Shown here piece by piece: positions 5,084-24,851 of a stretch of 24,851 nt of DNA. The stretch lies in IMG/VR virus record IMGVR_UViG_3300008450_004754, positions 1 through 24,851 of that record. One strand, 5' to 3'. The stretch comes from a virus. Position 1 is the first letter of the stretch; every line of letters begins with the position of its first letter. The translations under genes and the position numbers were made by a program. The notes under the pieces are model-generated. The model saw only the letters and a program-made list of their open reading frames with translations, had not been told where the DNA came from and ran no database searches.

Positions 5084-5319
5084 TGAGTTTTATAAAAGTA
5101 GAAAAAATGAATATTTGCAAAAATAGACTAAATGAATTAAAAGAAGAAAAGCGAATAATTATTGAAAAATTAAAAGAAAGTGCAGATCCTAATAGTCCAG
5201 GAGACTATACGGATGCAGAATCTTTAATTAAATATAGAGAAATAAATGATAGAATTAATGCTGTTATGGATGCCATAAAGGTATTGCAAGGCATTGATAG
5301 TAATGATATAATACAATAG
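5083..5319 (+). CDS. Small coiled-coil protein (78 aa)
   Basis: Helical, charged protein: a Lys/Glu-rich first half (ELKEEKR and IEKLKES runs), a central loop near 36-42, and a second helix with heptad-like spacing (INDRINAVMDAIKVL). No known domain recognised. It starts in a TAATG overlap with the preceding tail gene and is first of three small coiled-coil genes between the large tail proteins and the fibre-tip-like gene. This suggests a structural, assembly or chaperone role. Its last codons also contain a promoter-like sequence for the next gene. Confidence 0.65.
   Translation: MSFIKVEKMNICKNRLNELKEEKRIIIEKLKESADPNSPGDYTDAESLIKYREINDRINAVMDAIKVLQGIDSNDIIQ
5284..5312 (+). promoter_or_regulatory. 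Candidate sigma70-type promoter with extended -10
   Basis: TTGCAA (5284-5289), a 17-base spacer, then TATAAT (5307-5312) preceded by TGA (extended -10). It lies inside the last codons of the 78-residue gene. The predicted start near 5319 is just upstream of a strong AGGAGG and the ATG at 5330. Because it overlaps coding sequence in an AT-rich genome, chance is possible. Confidence 0.45.
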
Positions 5320-5329
5320 GAGGAAACAA

Positions 5330-5548
5330 ATGACTTATCAACTAACAAATGAAGAAAAAATATCTATTATAAACCAACATTTAAAAAATCTTAGTTTAAG
5401 TAGATATAGTATTGAAATTGGTAAAATGGAGGCTGCTGCTGTGCTCACACCTGAGCAATTGGCTGGAACCTCATATGATTCCCAGTTACAAGAAATTGAT
5501 TTAAAAATATCTGCTCTAACAACAGAGTTAACAGAACTATCCGAATAG
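5330..5548 (+). CDS. Small helical/coiled-coil protein (72 aa)
   Basis: Two predicted helices separated by a short Pro/Gly loop (LTPEQLAGTSY, about 38-48). The C-terminal helix has clear heptads (LQEIDLKISALTTELTEL). No enzyme motif. The Shine-Dalgarno AGGAGG is among the strongest in the window, so this product may be made in larger amounts than its neighbours. Its place among tail genes suggests a structural or assembly role; the family is not recognised by name. Confidence 0.7.
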   Translation: MTYQLTNEEKISIINQHLKNLSLSRYSIEIGKMEAAAVLTPEQLAGTSYDSQLQEIDLKISALTTELTELSE

Positions 5549-5555
5549 GAACAAG

Positions 5556-5741
5556 ATGGCAGAAAAAGCAGAATTAATTATAACAGCCCTACAACAGCGC
5601 ATTGGAGAAATTGTATCTAGCTATGAAACTCAAATTGCAATACTTAGGGCAGAAATTACAAAGCTTATGGAAGAGGAAGAGGCAAAGATTGAAGCTGTTG
5701 AGGACTACGAAGAGCACCTTAGCAATATCGTCTCCGACTAA
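5556..5741 (+). CDS. Coiled-coil protein, possible 5' half of a frameshifted gene
   Basis: A 61-residue acidic coiled coil (heptads such as IAILRAEITKLMEEEEAKIEAV) ending at a TAA at 5739-5741. GGAAC precedes the ATG. The next gene's frame (+1) is open across the final ~140 bases, and its conserved-looking domain begins right after this stop, with no ATG near it. Either this is a separate small protein, or its ribosomes shift +1 near the end to make a 176-residue fusion. A one-base error in the assembly would look the same. Confidence 0.6.
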   Translation: MAEKAELIITALQQRIGEIVSSYETQIAILRAEITKLMEEEEAKIEAVEDYEEHLSNIVSD

Positions 5742-6087
5742 TTTCCCTTCGGGTATCGCTGTTAAAACAGATAAAGATACATATTGGATTAAAGATGGTA
5801 AAAGGTATAGACTTATTTCTGATAGGGCCGCAGTGTCTTGGTCATTTACAACAGTAAATGCAACTGAGACGGCTTTAACAGGTTTTAAGGTTGCTGGTAA
5901 ACTAGGCTTTAGAGACGGAGCCTTGATCAAGAACATAGCAGATGGTAAAATATATCTAGTATCACAAAATAAGCTAAGACACATTGTGGACCCAGATTCG
6001 TTTACCAAGTACGGCTTGGACAGATCTAAGGTAATAGAAGTATCTGAGGCGGAAGTCTCAGCACACGATTTAGGAGAAAAACTATAA
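5689..6087 (+). CDS. Repeat-domain structural protein, start uncertain
   Basis: The believable part runs from about 5740 to the stop at 6085-6087. It holds two related units: GIAVKTDKDTYWIKDGKRYR near its start and DGALIKNIADGKIYLVSQNK further on, followed by HIVDPDSFTKYGLDRSKVIEVSEAE. That pattern (small hydrophobic strand, 'G-x-x-Y-x-(I/V)-x-x-(G/N)-K', then 'PD..F...G.....V..V...E') recurs in phage and bacterial surface proteins, probably as beta-repeat units. There is no ATG close to the domain. I chose TTG at 5689 because GAGG at 5679-5682 sits six bases before it. An upstream ATG at 5602 gives a very basic tail that looks like out-of-frame translation. A +1 frameshift from the preceding coiled coil is the other option. 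Confidence 0.5.
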   Translation: MKLLRTTKSTLAISSPTNFPSGIAVKTDKDTYWIKDGKRYRLISDRAAVSWSFTTVNATETALTGFKVAGKLGFRDGALIKNIADGKIYLVSQNKLRHIVDPDSFTKYGLDRSKVIEVSEAEVSAHDLGEKL

Positions 6088-6598: not shown

Positions 6599-7399
6599 AT
6601 GTCAAACGATTTGAAATGGATGCTATCGTCCGATCAGCAATTCCCGTATCAGGATGATAAGGCCATTGAGCTATGGTTTAAGGTAATGAAGTGGTTTAAG
6701 CCAGATGTTGTCGACTACCTTGGGGATACAGATGATCAGGCTTGTTATAGCAAGTATACAGAAGGTCGCTCAGCAGAGTTTATGAACCTTCATAAAACAG
6801 ATAGCAAAGATTTAATTGTGCCTATGATGCGACACGAGGCAAAGGGCGCAAGAGATTTTTATACAAAGACTCGTGACATGCTTCCAGATGCCCAGCTATT
6901 CTCAGCACTTGGAAATCATGATGTTCGTATCTTTAACTATGTTGATGCAAAACTTCCAGATTATATTAATGAAGTAACACCAGAAGCATTATGGTCGCTA
7001 GATTCATTAGGCTACGAATATATTTATTATAATGAACTTCCTAAGCGCCGTTTCGGAGACATTCACGTTCACCACGGGCTATCTATTGCAGCAACAGGTT
7101 CTGCAAGAAAAGATATGGAAGATATGCAGATCTCTTTAATTAGAGGACACTCACACCGAATTGCTTCACATATGGTAACATATGAGTTAAGAAATAATGG
7201 TGAGGGGGAAACTCTACGTGGCTATGAAATTGGACATATGTGCGATGAAAAGAGTGACGGAATGAAGTATACTCAGCATCATGATTGGCAAAAGGGATTT
7301 GCCGTTGCCCATATTGTAAATGATTATCCTCACATTCAAATGATTCATATTTCTCCAGACTATACATGCGTTGTGGATGGAAAGCTATTCTCCGTATGA
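6599..7399 (+). CDS. Calcineurin-like metallophosphoesterase
   Basis: Predicted dinuclear-metal phosphoesterase of 266 residues. Motifs appear in family order: D12-x-Q14 (first motif, usually D-x-H), GDTDD (41-45), GNHD (104-107), HVHHG (155-159) and RGHSH (181-185). Only the first motif departs, with Gln for His. The family covers protein phosphatases, nucleases and nucleotide phosphodiesterases, and the substrate cannot be read here. The ATG at 6599 is chosen over an in-frame ATG at 6572, which falls inside the terminator hairpin; AAGGA sits six bases before 6599. It is first in the replication module and the next gene overlaps its stop. Confidence 0.85.
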   Translation: MSNDLKWMLSSDQQFPYQDDKAIELWFKVMKWFKPDVVDYLGDTDDQACYSKYTEGRSAEFMNLHKTDSKDLIVPMMRHEAKGARDFYTKTRDMLPDAQLFSALGNHDVRIFNYVDAKLPDYINEVTPEALWSLDSLGYEYIYYNELPKRRFGDIHVHHGLSIAATGSARKDMEDMQISLIRGHSHRIASHMVTYELRNNGEGETLRGYEIGHMCDEKSDGMKYTQHHDWQKGFAVAHIVNDYPHIQMIHISPDYTCVVDGKLFSV

Positions 7400-18900: not shown

Positions 18901-19453
18901 GCTTGTTAAGACTAAAGCTAACCGAGTGTTGGGTATAGACGCATCTACGAATTCGGTTGCATTCTGCTTGATGGAAAATGATAAGCCGTTGAAGTGGGGT
19001 AAAATAGATTTTGTTGGTGCAGATATATATGAAAAGATATACGACGCTAAAAAGAAGATGCACGTAATGCTTGATGAATTAAAGGCTGACTATATTGCCG
19101 TAGAGGGTGCGATACTTGTCAGATCTCCTGATGCGGTAATAAAACTATCATATGTATATGGAGTTGTTATTGCTGAGCTTATGTCTACTGGAGCGTCTGT
19201 TATTACTATATCACCCAGTTCTTGGCAGGCATATATTGGAAATAAAAACCCAACAAAAGATGAGAAGCAGGCGATAAGAGTAAAGAACCCAGGATATGCT
19301 GATTCATGGTATAAAACTCAATTGCGTAATATGCGTAAGCAAAGAACTGTAGACTACTTTAATAAAAAGTATGGTCTATCACTAAAAGATTTTGATGTTG
19401 CAGATGCATTCGGCATTGCACACTATGCAAATAAGGTGTTGACAGAACGATGA
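18887..19453 (+). CDS. ruvC: RuvC-like Holliday junction resolvase
   Basis: 188 residues, RNase H fold. Acidic catalytic residues are D18 (LGIDAST), E73 (AVEGAIL) and D170/D173 (DVADAFGIAHY), the order seen in RuvC. 'SPSSWQAYIGN' and a basic stretch (KTQLRNMRKQR) fill the DNA-binding middle. It would resolve four-way junctions so that branched DNA can be packaged. ATG 18887 is preferred to the adjacent TTG at 18884, and both lie in the end of the zinc-finger gene. Confidence 0.82.
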   Translation: MKLAELVKTKANRVLGIDASTNSVAFCLMENDKPLKWGKIDFVGADIYEKIYDAKKKMHVMLDELKADYIAVEGAILVRSPDAVIKLSYVYGVVIAELMSTGASVITISPSSWQAYIGNKNPTKDEKQAIRVKNPGYADSWYKTQLRNMRKQRTVDYFNKKYGLSLKDFDVADAFGIAHYANKVLTER

Positions 19454-19596
19454 AGTTATATCAAAGCCAAACATGGCTATATCGTAGATACATAGTACAA
19501 AAGAAAACAGTTACAGAAATTGCAGCAGAGTGTGGCGTATCATCTATGACTATACAGAGATACTTAGAACAGTTTGGATTAATTAAGAAAAGATGA
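19450..19596 (+). CDS. 48-residue helix-turn-helix peptide
   Basis: ATGA overlaps at both ends bracket a 48-codon frame. The middle (TVTEIAAECGVSSMTIQRYLEQFGL) is a textbook HTH: hydrophobic first helix, Gly turn, Ser-Ser-x-x-Ile recognition helix. The rest is basic (LYRRYIVQKK at the N-terminus, IKKR at the end). It is a minimal DNA-binding protein without a visible effector domain, like short phage regulators or the region-4 part of sigma-like proteins. Confidence 0.7.
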   Translation: MKLYQSQTWLYRRYIVQKKTVTEIAAECGVSSMTIQRYLEQFGLIKKR

Positions 19597-23688: not shown

Positions 23689-23868
23689 ATGCCTTGGGAA
23701 ATTAAAAGAAATGCGGCTGGTTGCAAAGGATACGCTGTTGTAAAGCAGGGTAGCGGTGAGCTAGTAGGATGCCATGCTGGAGAAAGCGCAGCACAGGCTC
23801 AGCTAAGAGCCCTGTATGCATCTGAGTCAGATTCAGAAAAGATGAAGGATAAGAAAAAGATTCTTTAA
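23689..23868 (+). CDS. Small phage protein (59 aa) with a GCHxxxxxAxAQxxAL motif
   Basis: TAGGAGATAAAA precedes the ATG at 23689. The sequence has WEIKRNAAGCKGYAVV, then GELVGCHAGESAAQAQLRAL, YASES and a Lys-rich tail. The 'G-x-V-x-G-C-H-x(5)-A-x-A-Q-x-x-A-L-Y-A-x-E' arrangement is common in short phage proteins and at the ends of some head-module proteins. Its function is not known to me. The stop codon lies inside the AT-rich terminator hairpin. Confidence 0.7.
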   Translation: MPWEIKRNAAGCKGYAVVKQGSGELVGCHAGESAAQAQLRALYASESDSEKMKDKKKIL

Positions 23869-23877
23869 TCTTTTTTT
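23854..23877 (+). terminator. AT-rich rho-independent terminator
   Basis: Arms AAAAAGATT (23854-23862) and AATCTTTTT (23867-23875) pair over 9 bp around CTTT, followed by more T. Only one G-C pair, so it is likely weak. It overlaps the stop codon of the small upstream gene and lies just before the Hsp20 promoter. Confidence 0.5.
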
Positions 23878-23883
23878 AGGTTG

Positions 23884-23892
23884 TGATATAAT
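23884..23892 (+). promoter_or_regulatory. Extended -10 promoter for hsp20
   Basis: TGATATAAT at 23884-23892; the -35 region (TTTAAT, 23864-23869) is poor. Predicted start about 23899. The ~53-base leader begins with a hairpin (TAGG 23898-23901 with CCTA 23915-23918) and ends with GAAGGAGG before the ATG. Confidence 0.6.
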
Positions 23893-23951
23893 ATTATTAG
23901 GTCGCCAATAGGGGCCTATAAATTAACTTATTCGCTTGAAGGAGGAATAAA

Positions 23952-24371
23952 ATGGTAACAACATATACATGGGATCTTTTCAAGGATCCTTTTTTTATTG
24001 GCTTTAATCGTGAGATTGAAAGAATGGCTAACGTGCACAACGCTGCATCACGCCAATCATATCCACCATACGATGTATTAAAGCTAGACGATGACACATA
24101 TAGAGTGTCTCTTGCAGTAGCAGGATTCACAAAGGAAGACATTGATCTCTCAGTAGACAACGGAACCCTTGTGGTATCTGGAGAAATTACAGAAGTTACA
24201 GACGCAGAGGTTCTGCATAAAGGAATTGCTGCACGTAAATTCACACGCTCATTTGCTCTTGGAGAATATATGGAAGTCTCTAGTGCATCTCTAAAGGATG
24301 GCATGCTTCATATTAATATTGATCGCATTGTCCCTGAAGATAAAAAGCCAAAGACAATTAAAATCAAATAA
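23952..24371 (+). CDS. hsp20: Small heat-shock protein (Hsp20/alpha-crystallin)
   Basis: 139 residues. N-terminal aromatic segment (TYTWDLFKDPFFIGFNREIERM) as in IbpA-type proteins. The alpha-crystallin domain (about 38-128) runs from YPPYDVLKLDDDTYRVSLAVAGF through KEDIDLSV and GTLVVSGE to RSFALGEYMEVSSASLKDGMLHI. The C-terminal 'K-x-I-K-I-K' tail takes the place of the usual I-x-I oligomer motif. It holds unfolding proteins for refolding. Phage Hsp20 genes are known, especially in aquatic phages, and are thought to help with stress or virion assembly. It has its own promoter and a strong GAAGGAGG. Confidence 0.92.
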   Translation: MVTTYTWDLFKDPFFIGFNREIERMANVHNAASRQSYPPYDVLKLDDDTYRVSLAVAGFTKEDIDLSVDNGTLVVSGEITEVTDAEVLHKGIAARKFTRSFALGEYMEVSSASLKDGMLHINIDRIVPEDKKPKTIKIK

Positions 24372-24379
24372 GATATAAT
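24351..24379 (+). promoter_or_regulatory. Promoter for the structured-leader/FmdB-like unit
   Basis: AAGACA (24351-24356, 4/6), 17-base spacer, TATAAT (24374-24379), overlapping the end of hsp20. The predicted start near 24386 coincides with the first paired base of the structured leader, which supports both calls. Confidence 0.6.
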
Positions 24380-24384
24380 AGTAG

Positions 24385-24487
24385 TCTGCACCCCGTCACT
24401 GGGGAGTCGCAGATTATATGCGGGCCGCTACCCGCAGGATCCACCTGAGCACTGTGGCTAAACTGCTCCTTAACATTTAGGAGAGAT
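24385..24487 (+). promoter_or_regulatory. GC-rich structured 5' leader with alternative hairpins
   Basis: About 60% GC by hand count over 24385-24470, against mid-to-high 30s around it. P1: TCTGC (24385-24389) with GCAGA (24409-24413), enclosing CCCC (24391-24394) with GGGG (24401-24404). P2: TGCGGG (24419-24424) with CCCGCA (24431-24436). P3: GAGCA (24447-24451) with TGCTC (24464-24468). P4: CTCCT (24466-24470) with AGGAG (24479-24483), the Shine-Dalgarno of the next gene. P3 and P4 share bases and exclude each other. A 20-codon frame, ATG 24418 to TAG 24478-24480, lies inside it. Confidence 0.6.
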
Positions 24488-24670
24488 GTGCCAAACTATG
24501 ATTACAAGTGTGTTATATGTGAACACGCTAAAGAAATTAACAAACCAATCAGTGAATCAACAATGACAGAACTCTGTGATAAATGCGGTGCTGCAATGGT
24601 TAAACAGTTCGGTACATTTGGTATTCAGTTTAAAGGTTCTGGCTTTTACAAAACCGATAACGCTAAGTAG
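24488..24670 (+). CDS. FmdB-like zinc-ribbon protein (60 aa)
   Basis: GTG start with AGGAG four bases upstream. The family hallmark is clear: PNYDYKCVICEH at the N-terminus, CDKCG about 20 residues later, and the ending FKGSGFYKTD. FmdB-type ribbons are putative regulatory proteins; phage copies are frequent and their target is unknown. Its Shine-Dalgarno can be paired away by the leader hairpin just upstream, so translation may be controlled. Confidence 0.85.
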   Translation: MPNYDYKCVICEHAKEINKPISESTMTELCDKCGAAMVKQFGTFGIQFKGSGFYKTDNAK

Positions 24671-24675
24671 TTCAA

Positions 24676-24684
24676 TGATATAAT
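24676..24684 (+). promoter_or_regulatory. Extended -10 promoter
   Basis: TGATATAAT, five bases after the FmdB-like stop; no good -35 seen. Predicted start about 24691, inside the inverted repeat that follows. Confidence 0.6.
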
Positions 24685-24687
24685 TAA

Positions 24688-24710
24688 CTTGTTATAAAAG
24701 TTATAACAAG
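24688..24710 (+). repeat. Perfect 10-bp inverted repeat at a transcription start
   Basis: Arms CTTGTTATAA (24688-24697) and TTATAACAAG (24701-24710) around three bases. It starts four bases after the -10 box and ends in the AAG of AAGGAG (24708-24713). It could be a dimeric repressor operator or an RNA hairpin over the ribosome site. Confidence 0.75.
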
Positions 24711-24720
24711 GAGTTATTAG

Positions 24721-24851
24721 TTGACTAGGACTAAACTATGGAGATTAACATTAACAGCCATTTTAGGGTTTGGTTGGCTATTCCTTACACCTGCTTATAG
24801 TGATGATCCACTAAGTTTAGCCGCTCAAGAAATACAAGAGCTTAATGAAAA
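24721..24851 (+). CDS. Secreted protein with signal peptide (5' part only)
   Basis: TTG start supported by AAGGAG (24708-24713) seven bases upstream; the frame runs open to the window end (43 codons). The N-terminus is a clear Sec signal: basic start (TRTKLWR), hydrophobic core (LTLTAILGFGWLFL), helix breaker TP, and A-Y-S just before DDP as a likely cleavage site. The mature part begins as a charged helix (LAAQEIQELNE), like the coiled-coil fronts of actinobacterial NlpC/P60 hydrolases. That comparison, and hence a lysis or wall-remodelling role, is only a suggestion. Confidence 0.7.
   Translation, partial: MTRTKLWRLTLTAILGFGWLFLTPAYSDDPLSLAAQEIQELNE

Follow-up and report, generated by a model that had tools for sequence, protein, structure and literature searches.

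A conserved hairpin astride the predicted transcription start of a phage secreted-protein gene may hide part of its Shine–Dalgarno sequence in read-through RNA

The window analysed here is an entire virus record of 24,851 bases. Near its end a perfect palindrome lies between the promoter and the Shine–Dalgarno (SD) sequence of a gene for a secreted protein. The palindrome is probably, though by no means certainly, an RNA hairpin astride the +1 position that hides part of the SD in RNA reading through from upstream and frees it in RNA started at +1. Comparison of relatives shows that the arrangement of promoter, hairpin and SD is conserved, and that the arm sequence turns over while pairing is kept, with covariation of the RNA type. 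The start site, the read-through, the differential translation and the RNA stability are what we infer from these patterns.

A palindrome between promoter and Shine–Dalgarno sequence

The palindrome at 24688-24710 reads CTTGTTATAA-AAG-TTATAACAAG and, as the original prediction had described it, is a perfect 10-bp inverted repeat with a 3-base centre. The span first assigned to it, 24688-24713, is right as far as 24710; the last GAG is the remainder of AAGGAG and lies outside the palindrome. The repeat begins 3 nt past TATAAT (24679-24684), and its right arm continues into the AAGGAG of the secreted-protein ORF, which is spaced 7 nt from the start codon (Table 1).

No other inverted repeat in the window combines 10-nt arms with a centre of 3-8 nt. 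Dinucleotide shuffles of the window yielded a mean of 0.23 such repeats, with at least one in 10 of 60 shuffles, and 10-nt arms around a centre of exactly 3 nt appeared in one of the 60. The bare palindrome is only mildly improbable by itself, so its weight comes from conservation in relatives.

Table 1. Coordinates of the features discussed (positions in the window)
Feature	Position	Strand	Basis or remark
48-aa HTH protein	19450-19596		PHROG matches: phage DNA-binding proteins, HNH endonucleases
Hsp20 extended -10 box and start-anchored hairpin	box 23884-23892; hairpin 23899-23917	+	nt 7 paired in 43/44 distinct leaders
Zinc-ribbon promoter/leader with start-anchored hairpin	24371..24483; hairpin 24385-24413	+	possible pseudoknot; nt 7 paired in 33/36 distinct leaders
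Zinc-ribbon (FmdB-like) gene	24488..24670	+	Pfam Zn_ribbon_8, E 2.7e-9; PHROG 1076
Extended -10 element TGATATAAT of the secreted-protein gene	24676..24684	+	TGNTATAAT upstream in relatives
Hairpin	arms 24688-24697 and 24701-24710; loop 24698-24700	+	covariation and G-U wobbles in relatives
Predicted +1 (G, fourth base of 5' arm)	24691	+	from leaderless-looking ORFs
Shine–Dalgarno AAGGAG	24708..24713	+	sequence; AAG pairs with 24688-24690 (-3 to -1)
Secreted-protein gene, beginning	24721..24849	+	TTG start; ORF open at contig end

Conservation of the arrangement in relatives

The palindrome together with GGAG was found in 30 virus contigs, and 29 of these also hold a zinc-ribbon match. The loci compared (L001-L110) represent 90 distinct contigs, the window among them. 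As nearly all were gathered through the zinc-ribbon gene (the best 80 of 173 relatives in the protein scan were kept) or through the palindrome itself, the sample is limited to relatives at near and middling distance.

Of the 110 loci, 100 (80 of 90 distinct contigs) contain the N-terminus of the secreted protein; the other 10 are short or carry a more divergent gene. Every one of the 100 loci (80/80 distinct contigs) has TGNTATAAT at most 75 nt upstream of the gene, with the N variable and TG and TATAAT constant, and every one begins the gene with TTG. Their leaders amount to 37 distinct sequences, and folding predicts a paired nt 7 (counted from the box) in all 37. In two loci, L067 and L009, another gene follows the zinc-ribbon copy, yet the same locus holds the leader together with the secreted-protein gene; the leader thus belongs with the secreted-protein gene.

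RNA hairpin or DNA operator

A set of 42 distinct leaders was used to examine the pairing. Of these, 38 fall in one register, and the divergent L055, L066, L068 and L100 were excluded from the count of cells. The resulting 380 cells (38 leaders by 10 pairs) comprise 359 Watson–Crick pairs, 14 G-U pairs, no A-C and 7 other combinations, six of which occur at the first or last pair. The 38 leaders hold 20 distinct arm pairs, and the loop measures 3 nt in 29, 5 nt in 5 and 6 nt in 3 of 37 leaders.

A 49-tip tree that leaves out 5 rows showed 33 two-sided changes from one Watson–Crick pair to another; these events are not independent, since many pairs change on shared branches and hairpins seem at times to have been replaced whole. 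One-sided changes led to G-U in 11 cases and to other mismatches in 9, of which 7 affect the first or last pair; none led to A-C, and the one A-C state on the tree is at an inferred ancestor. Further, a 19-row alignment of hand-chosen leaders of equal length, longer-looped ones excluded, has 97.9% of its cells paired and changes on both sides in 6 of 10 pairs. On five measures, no shuffle out of 500 equalled the alignment even once. With the register slid, 34-63% of cells paired, a comparison biased toward the structure because the structure was read from those same sequences.

These patterns bear on the idea, put forward originally, that a dimeric repressor, possibly the 48-aa HTH peptide, uses the palindrome as its operator. 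The dyad is perfect and overlaps the promoter, and a small HTH protein is indeed encoded in the window (Table 1). However, the arms are replaced among relatives, the centre varies between 3, 5 and 6 nt, and departures from Watson–Crick pairing favour G-U. Nothing in a DNA dyad would steer one-sided transitions toward G-U over A-C, so the pattern is RNA-like and not operator-like. With 20 arm pairs among 38 leaders, there is no conserved half-site of the kind expected for a dimeric repressor. Nor does the arm have a second site: in six large relatives CTTGTTATAA occurs nowhere beyond this hairpin (four) or is absent and replaced by other arms (two). The search for copies that had been suggested found no further exact one in the window, and the 5 copies with one mismatch, against 3.88 expected, are what chance would give. 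The recognition helix of the peptide varies independently of the arms. A QRYLEKFG-type helix occurs in G001, where the arms are TTAAGCAAAC, and in G003 and G006, where they are CTTGTTATAA; G004 and G005 also have arms CTTGTTATAA and carry a YRALK-type helix. An operator is therefore very improbable.

At 6741-6754, inside an ORF, the window also contains a near-palindrome like the arm, CTTGTTATAGCAAG.

A predicted transcription start inside the 5' arm

Genes that appear leaderless calibrate the distance from box to start. Among 115 TGNTATAAT sites in six relatives, the ATG of an ORF of at least 45 aa lies at nt 7 in 14 instances, some of them one gene seen in two genomes, and at nt 6 or 8 in none. 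For all 1150 TATAAT sites, the ATG counts at nt 6, 7 and 8 are 1, 31 and 7; four control hexamers gave 1-5 ATG at nt 7 and at most 12 at any position. Leaderless mRNAs are described as frequent in Streptomyces (PMC4681348). Because the ATG of these genes stands exactly 7 nt past the box, nt 7 was taken as +1, and we infer that transcription of the secreted-protein gene begins at G24691, inside the 5' arm. This nucleotide is a purine in 49/49 distinct leaders of the secreted-protein gene, in 39/44 of Hsp20 and in 22/36 of the zinc-ribbon gene; given the lesser regularity in the two latter sets, the start rule is weaker there. As a separate observation, leaderless-looking genes are many in the six large relatives (G001-G006, loci L111-L143), and the 14 ORFs include lipoprotein-like genes.

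Were the start to lie upstream of 24688, every transcript would carry the whole hairpin, which would then act as a constant or temperature-sensitive damper. The A+U-rich stem adjoining the SD and the weakness of the TTG start (100/100 loci) would suit such a role. However, the start would have to fall no more than 4 nt from the -10 box, and the leaderless-looking genes say nt 7, which makes this account improbable.

Partial covering of the Shine–Dalgarno sequence

G24691 pairs with C24707, the base directly before AAGGAG, and the bases at -3 to -1 pair with AAG. With +1 at G24691, a locally started RNA would lack exactly the bases that cover the SD. Read-through from the zinc-ribbon gene is likely because its stop codon lies 5 nt before the extended -10 element and no terminator-like site is listed on the + strand between 24371 and 24676.

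The mechanism proposed is as follows. Read-through RNA from the zinc-ribbon and Hsp20 genes would carry all ten base pairs, and the pairs at -3 to -1 would cover the AAG of AAGGAG, so that translation of the secreted protein would be damped. RNA from the local promoter would begin at G24691 without these three bases, and the whole SD would be exposed. It would open with the remaining 7-bp stem, its first nucleotide paired, and this 5' stem should hinder 5'-end-dependent decay. With read-through RNA damped and local RNA open, the secreted protein would be made mainly from its own transcript.

Partition-function folds of the 42 leaders are consistent with this proposal. The mean unpaired fraction of the six SD bases is 0.26 in read-through RNA vs 0.71 in +1 RNA; it is 0.06 vs 0.81 for the first three bases and 0.46 vs 0.61 for the last three. 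Predicted access to the SD is greater in +1 RNA for 39/42 leaders, the exceptions being L011, L078 and L079, and L055 gains only slightly. Pairing at -3, -2 and -1 is retained in 35, 38 and 37 of 38 leaders, and the divergent L055, L068 and L100 form 5-7 bp between the bases just before the start and the SD region. The cover is partial, as the conserved hairpin does not take in the GAG of the SD. A lower helix, in which the -10 sequence would pair with the bases past the SD and so cover more, can be drawn for many leaders and is not conserved. Thus, the suggestion made at the outset of a block of the ribosome site by RNA has good support and takes a sharper form: the block is predicted for read-through RNA and not for RNA of the local promoter.

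A simpler role would be that of a 5'-terminal stabilising stem-loop only, one which shields the RNA from pyrophosphate removal and 5'-dependent RNases and for which the pairing between -3 to -1 and the SD is incidental. The first base of the +1 RNA is predicted to be paired in 45/49 leaders of the secreted-protein gene, and end conversion by RppH is described as impeded by a 5' hairpin (PMC3997798). However, a stabilising stem needs no pairs upstream of +1, yet these are kept at the frequencies given above, and the third of them (-1) shows two-sided changes. We regard a purely stabilising role as rather unlikely.

The hairpin also sits between two genes in read-through RNA, where a terminator or an RNA processing site might be expected. 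No T-run follows it, however, and it is absent from the listed terminator-like sites. The stem is also short for a double-strand RNase. Such a function deserves hardly any credence.

A scan for other SD-enclosing hairpins in six relatives returned 0 or 1 per genome; since it demanded deeper cover and missed this leader itself, the count does not imply uniqueness.

Start-anchored hairpins of the neighbouring genes

The Hsp20 and zinc-ribbon genes upstream are likewise preceded by hairpins anchored at the predicted start (Table 1). At other TGNTATAAT sites of six relatives, the first base of the +1 RNA is paired in 12/103, and in 3/38 of those with an SD and a start codon within 60 nt. When the RNA is begun one base later, the first base is paired in 18/49 leaders of the secreted-protein gene and 17/36 of the zinc-ribbon gene, and still in 43/44 of Hsp20. 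In Hsp20 and the zinc-ribbon gene, the base at nt 7 and the place of the hairpin foot are not strictly fixed.

The Hsp20 hairpin follows the pattern GGGTCGCC-NNNN-GGGGCCC; it has a conserved bulged G and begins at the predicted start or close to it (44 distinct leaders). Its stem often runs upstream of +1, with compensating changes and no SD there; such an extension, therefore, need not serve SD hiding.

The zinc-ribbon leader was compared in 43 variants (from L001-L110), in which stem pairs covary (CG/GC, AT/TA/GC, AT/CG/GC) around an invariant loop, CTGAGCA. The downstream TGCTC could pair with the GAGCA of this loop as a pseudoknot or, together with the next bases, with the AGGAG Shine–Dalgarno, and by its sequence the leader looks riboswitch-like. 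RNAalifold returned no structure for the zinc-ribbon upstream stretches, a mixed and gappy set, and pairing was counted by motif pattern. A search of 23850-24851 against Rfam, with E up to 5, gave no match at the gathering score; the sole match, to a snoRNA model within the Hsp20 gene, was below it. For four relatives the limit was E 1, and the 9 matches were four tRNAs, four Plastid-ycf2 and one IS009; the gathering score was reached by the tRNAs alone, with Plastid-ycf2 (opposite the tRNAs) and IS009 below it.

A broader and distinctly more tentative idea, which we would place on the doubtful side, is that the hairpins of all three genes serve as sensors of the birthplace of an RNA. The pre-start stretch of the secreted-protein gene would be an anti-Shine–Dalgarno, and only locally born RNA would be both 5'-protected and open.

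The secreted protein and the affiliation of the phage

The loci supplied 84 secreted-protein ORFs, duplicates counted, of which 56 are complete. Complete homologues have 499-701 residues and, judged by eye, a basic, hydrophobic signal-peptide-like N-terminus, a Pro-rich stretch and a hydrophobic C-terminus. Pfam places a PA14 domain in the protein of L033 (E 1.5e-6), that of L087 is just under the cut-off, and PA14 was not matched in the 499-residue protein of L071. PHROGs gave no match for the L033 and L087 proteins. The product had been thought possibly lytic; no lysis domain appeared in the three homologues scanned with Pfam or the two scanned with PHROGs. A role in the envelope is likely.

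In L087, the small ORFs past the secreted-protein gene (5195-6058; 65, 72 and 160 aa) look membrane-bound or lipoprotein-like and suggest an envelope gene cluster.

In the 'phages' collection, the terminase of the window is 62-64% identical to Streptomyces phage terminases among the 15 best of 367 records. The secreted protein matches just two records there, weakly and in part, and both are of Pelagibacter phage HTVC008M; the zinc ribbon has three distant matches, and 24640-24851 as DNA has none. In the genome contigs collection, 34 stretches fitted a search pattern, and none was confirmed as a relative of the secreted protein.

A further perfect 10-bp hairpin, CTCCTATGCT...AGCATAGGAG, occurs in G003 (31844) and in G006 (reverse strand, 4512 from the far end). 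Its 3' arm includes AGGAG, and another AGGAG and an ATG follow just downstream.

Significance

If the proposal is true, promoter-in-hairpin control like that of the T4 lysozyme gene would operate in phages with a Streptomyces-phage-related terminase, and the stretch downstream of an extended -10 promoter would double as an anti-Shine–Dalgarno. The many natural variants reveal the pairs that selection maintains, and the start site can be calibrated from leaderless-looking genes with no need of RNA data. The same reasoning could reveal start-anchored hairpins in other uncultured phages.

Comparison with known systems

In the literature covered, which leaves out most subscription journals, no report of this start-straddling hairpin element was found. 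Several described systems share parts of it.

The SAS/ESAS elements of Cluster K mycobacteriophages also belong to phages of Actinobacteria and also stand at translation starts and include AGGAG; about half have inverted repeats just upstream, as described in PMC3203893. However, SAS is given there as an invariant 13-bp sequence present 11-19 times per genome, whereas the arm described here occupies one site per genome and its sequence turns over. Repetition of the arm at many starts was not seen in the six relatives, which hold the arm at one site or none.

The seg43(25) hairpin of Aeromonas phage 25 is likewise stable and just upstream, with the ribosome site at the foot of the stem. PMC2988022 says of it that it does not sequester the ribosome site, whereas the full hairpin here includes the AAG of the SD.

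As in the 5'-terminal stabilising stem-loops of bacterial mRNAs treated in PMC3997798, the first transcribed base is predicted to be paired. The Bacillus end-converting enzyme is reported there to require at least 2 unpaired bases. By analogy, the 5' hairpin may protect the local RNA from decay. Unlike those stem-loops, the stem here extends to bases upstream of the predicted start, which pair with the SD.

A close parallel is offered by T4 gene e and I-TevI, whose long RNAs are described as folding so that the ribosome site is hidden, and whose late-promoter RNA is without the 5' part (PMC3014915, PMC2988022); soc and gene 49 are named in these sources as further hidden ribosome sites. There, the promoter lies at the 5' strand of a hairpin that covers the SD, so that long upstream RNA keeps the strand and RNA from that promoter lacks it; the arrangement here would be alike. 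The pairing of the SD in upstream-started RNA is found here by prediction (42 leaders), promoter and start are deduced from sequence and from leaderless-looking genes, and the window leader would lose just three bases of the strand. The box is not that of a T4-type late promoter, being TGATATAAT here vs TATAAATA in PMC3014915. Further, unlike in gene e and I-TevI, the SD is only partly covered in most leaders, and a 7-bp stem would remain at the 5' end. The control logic would be the same as that of T4 gene e and I-TevI, with a different promoter type, a partial cover, a remaining 5' stem and a different lineage.
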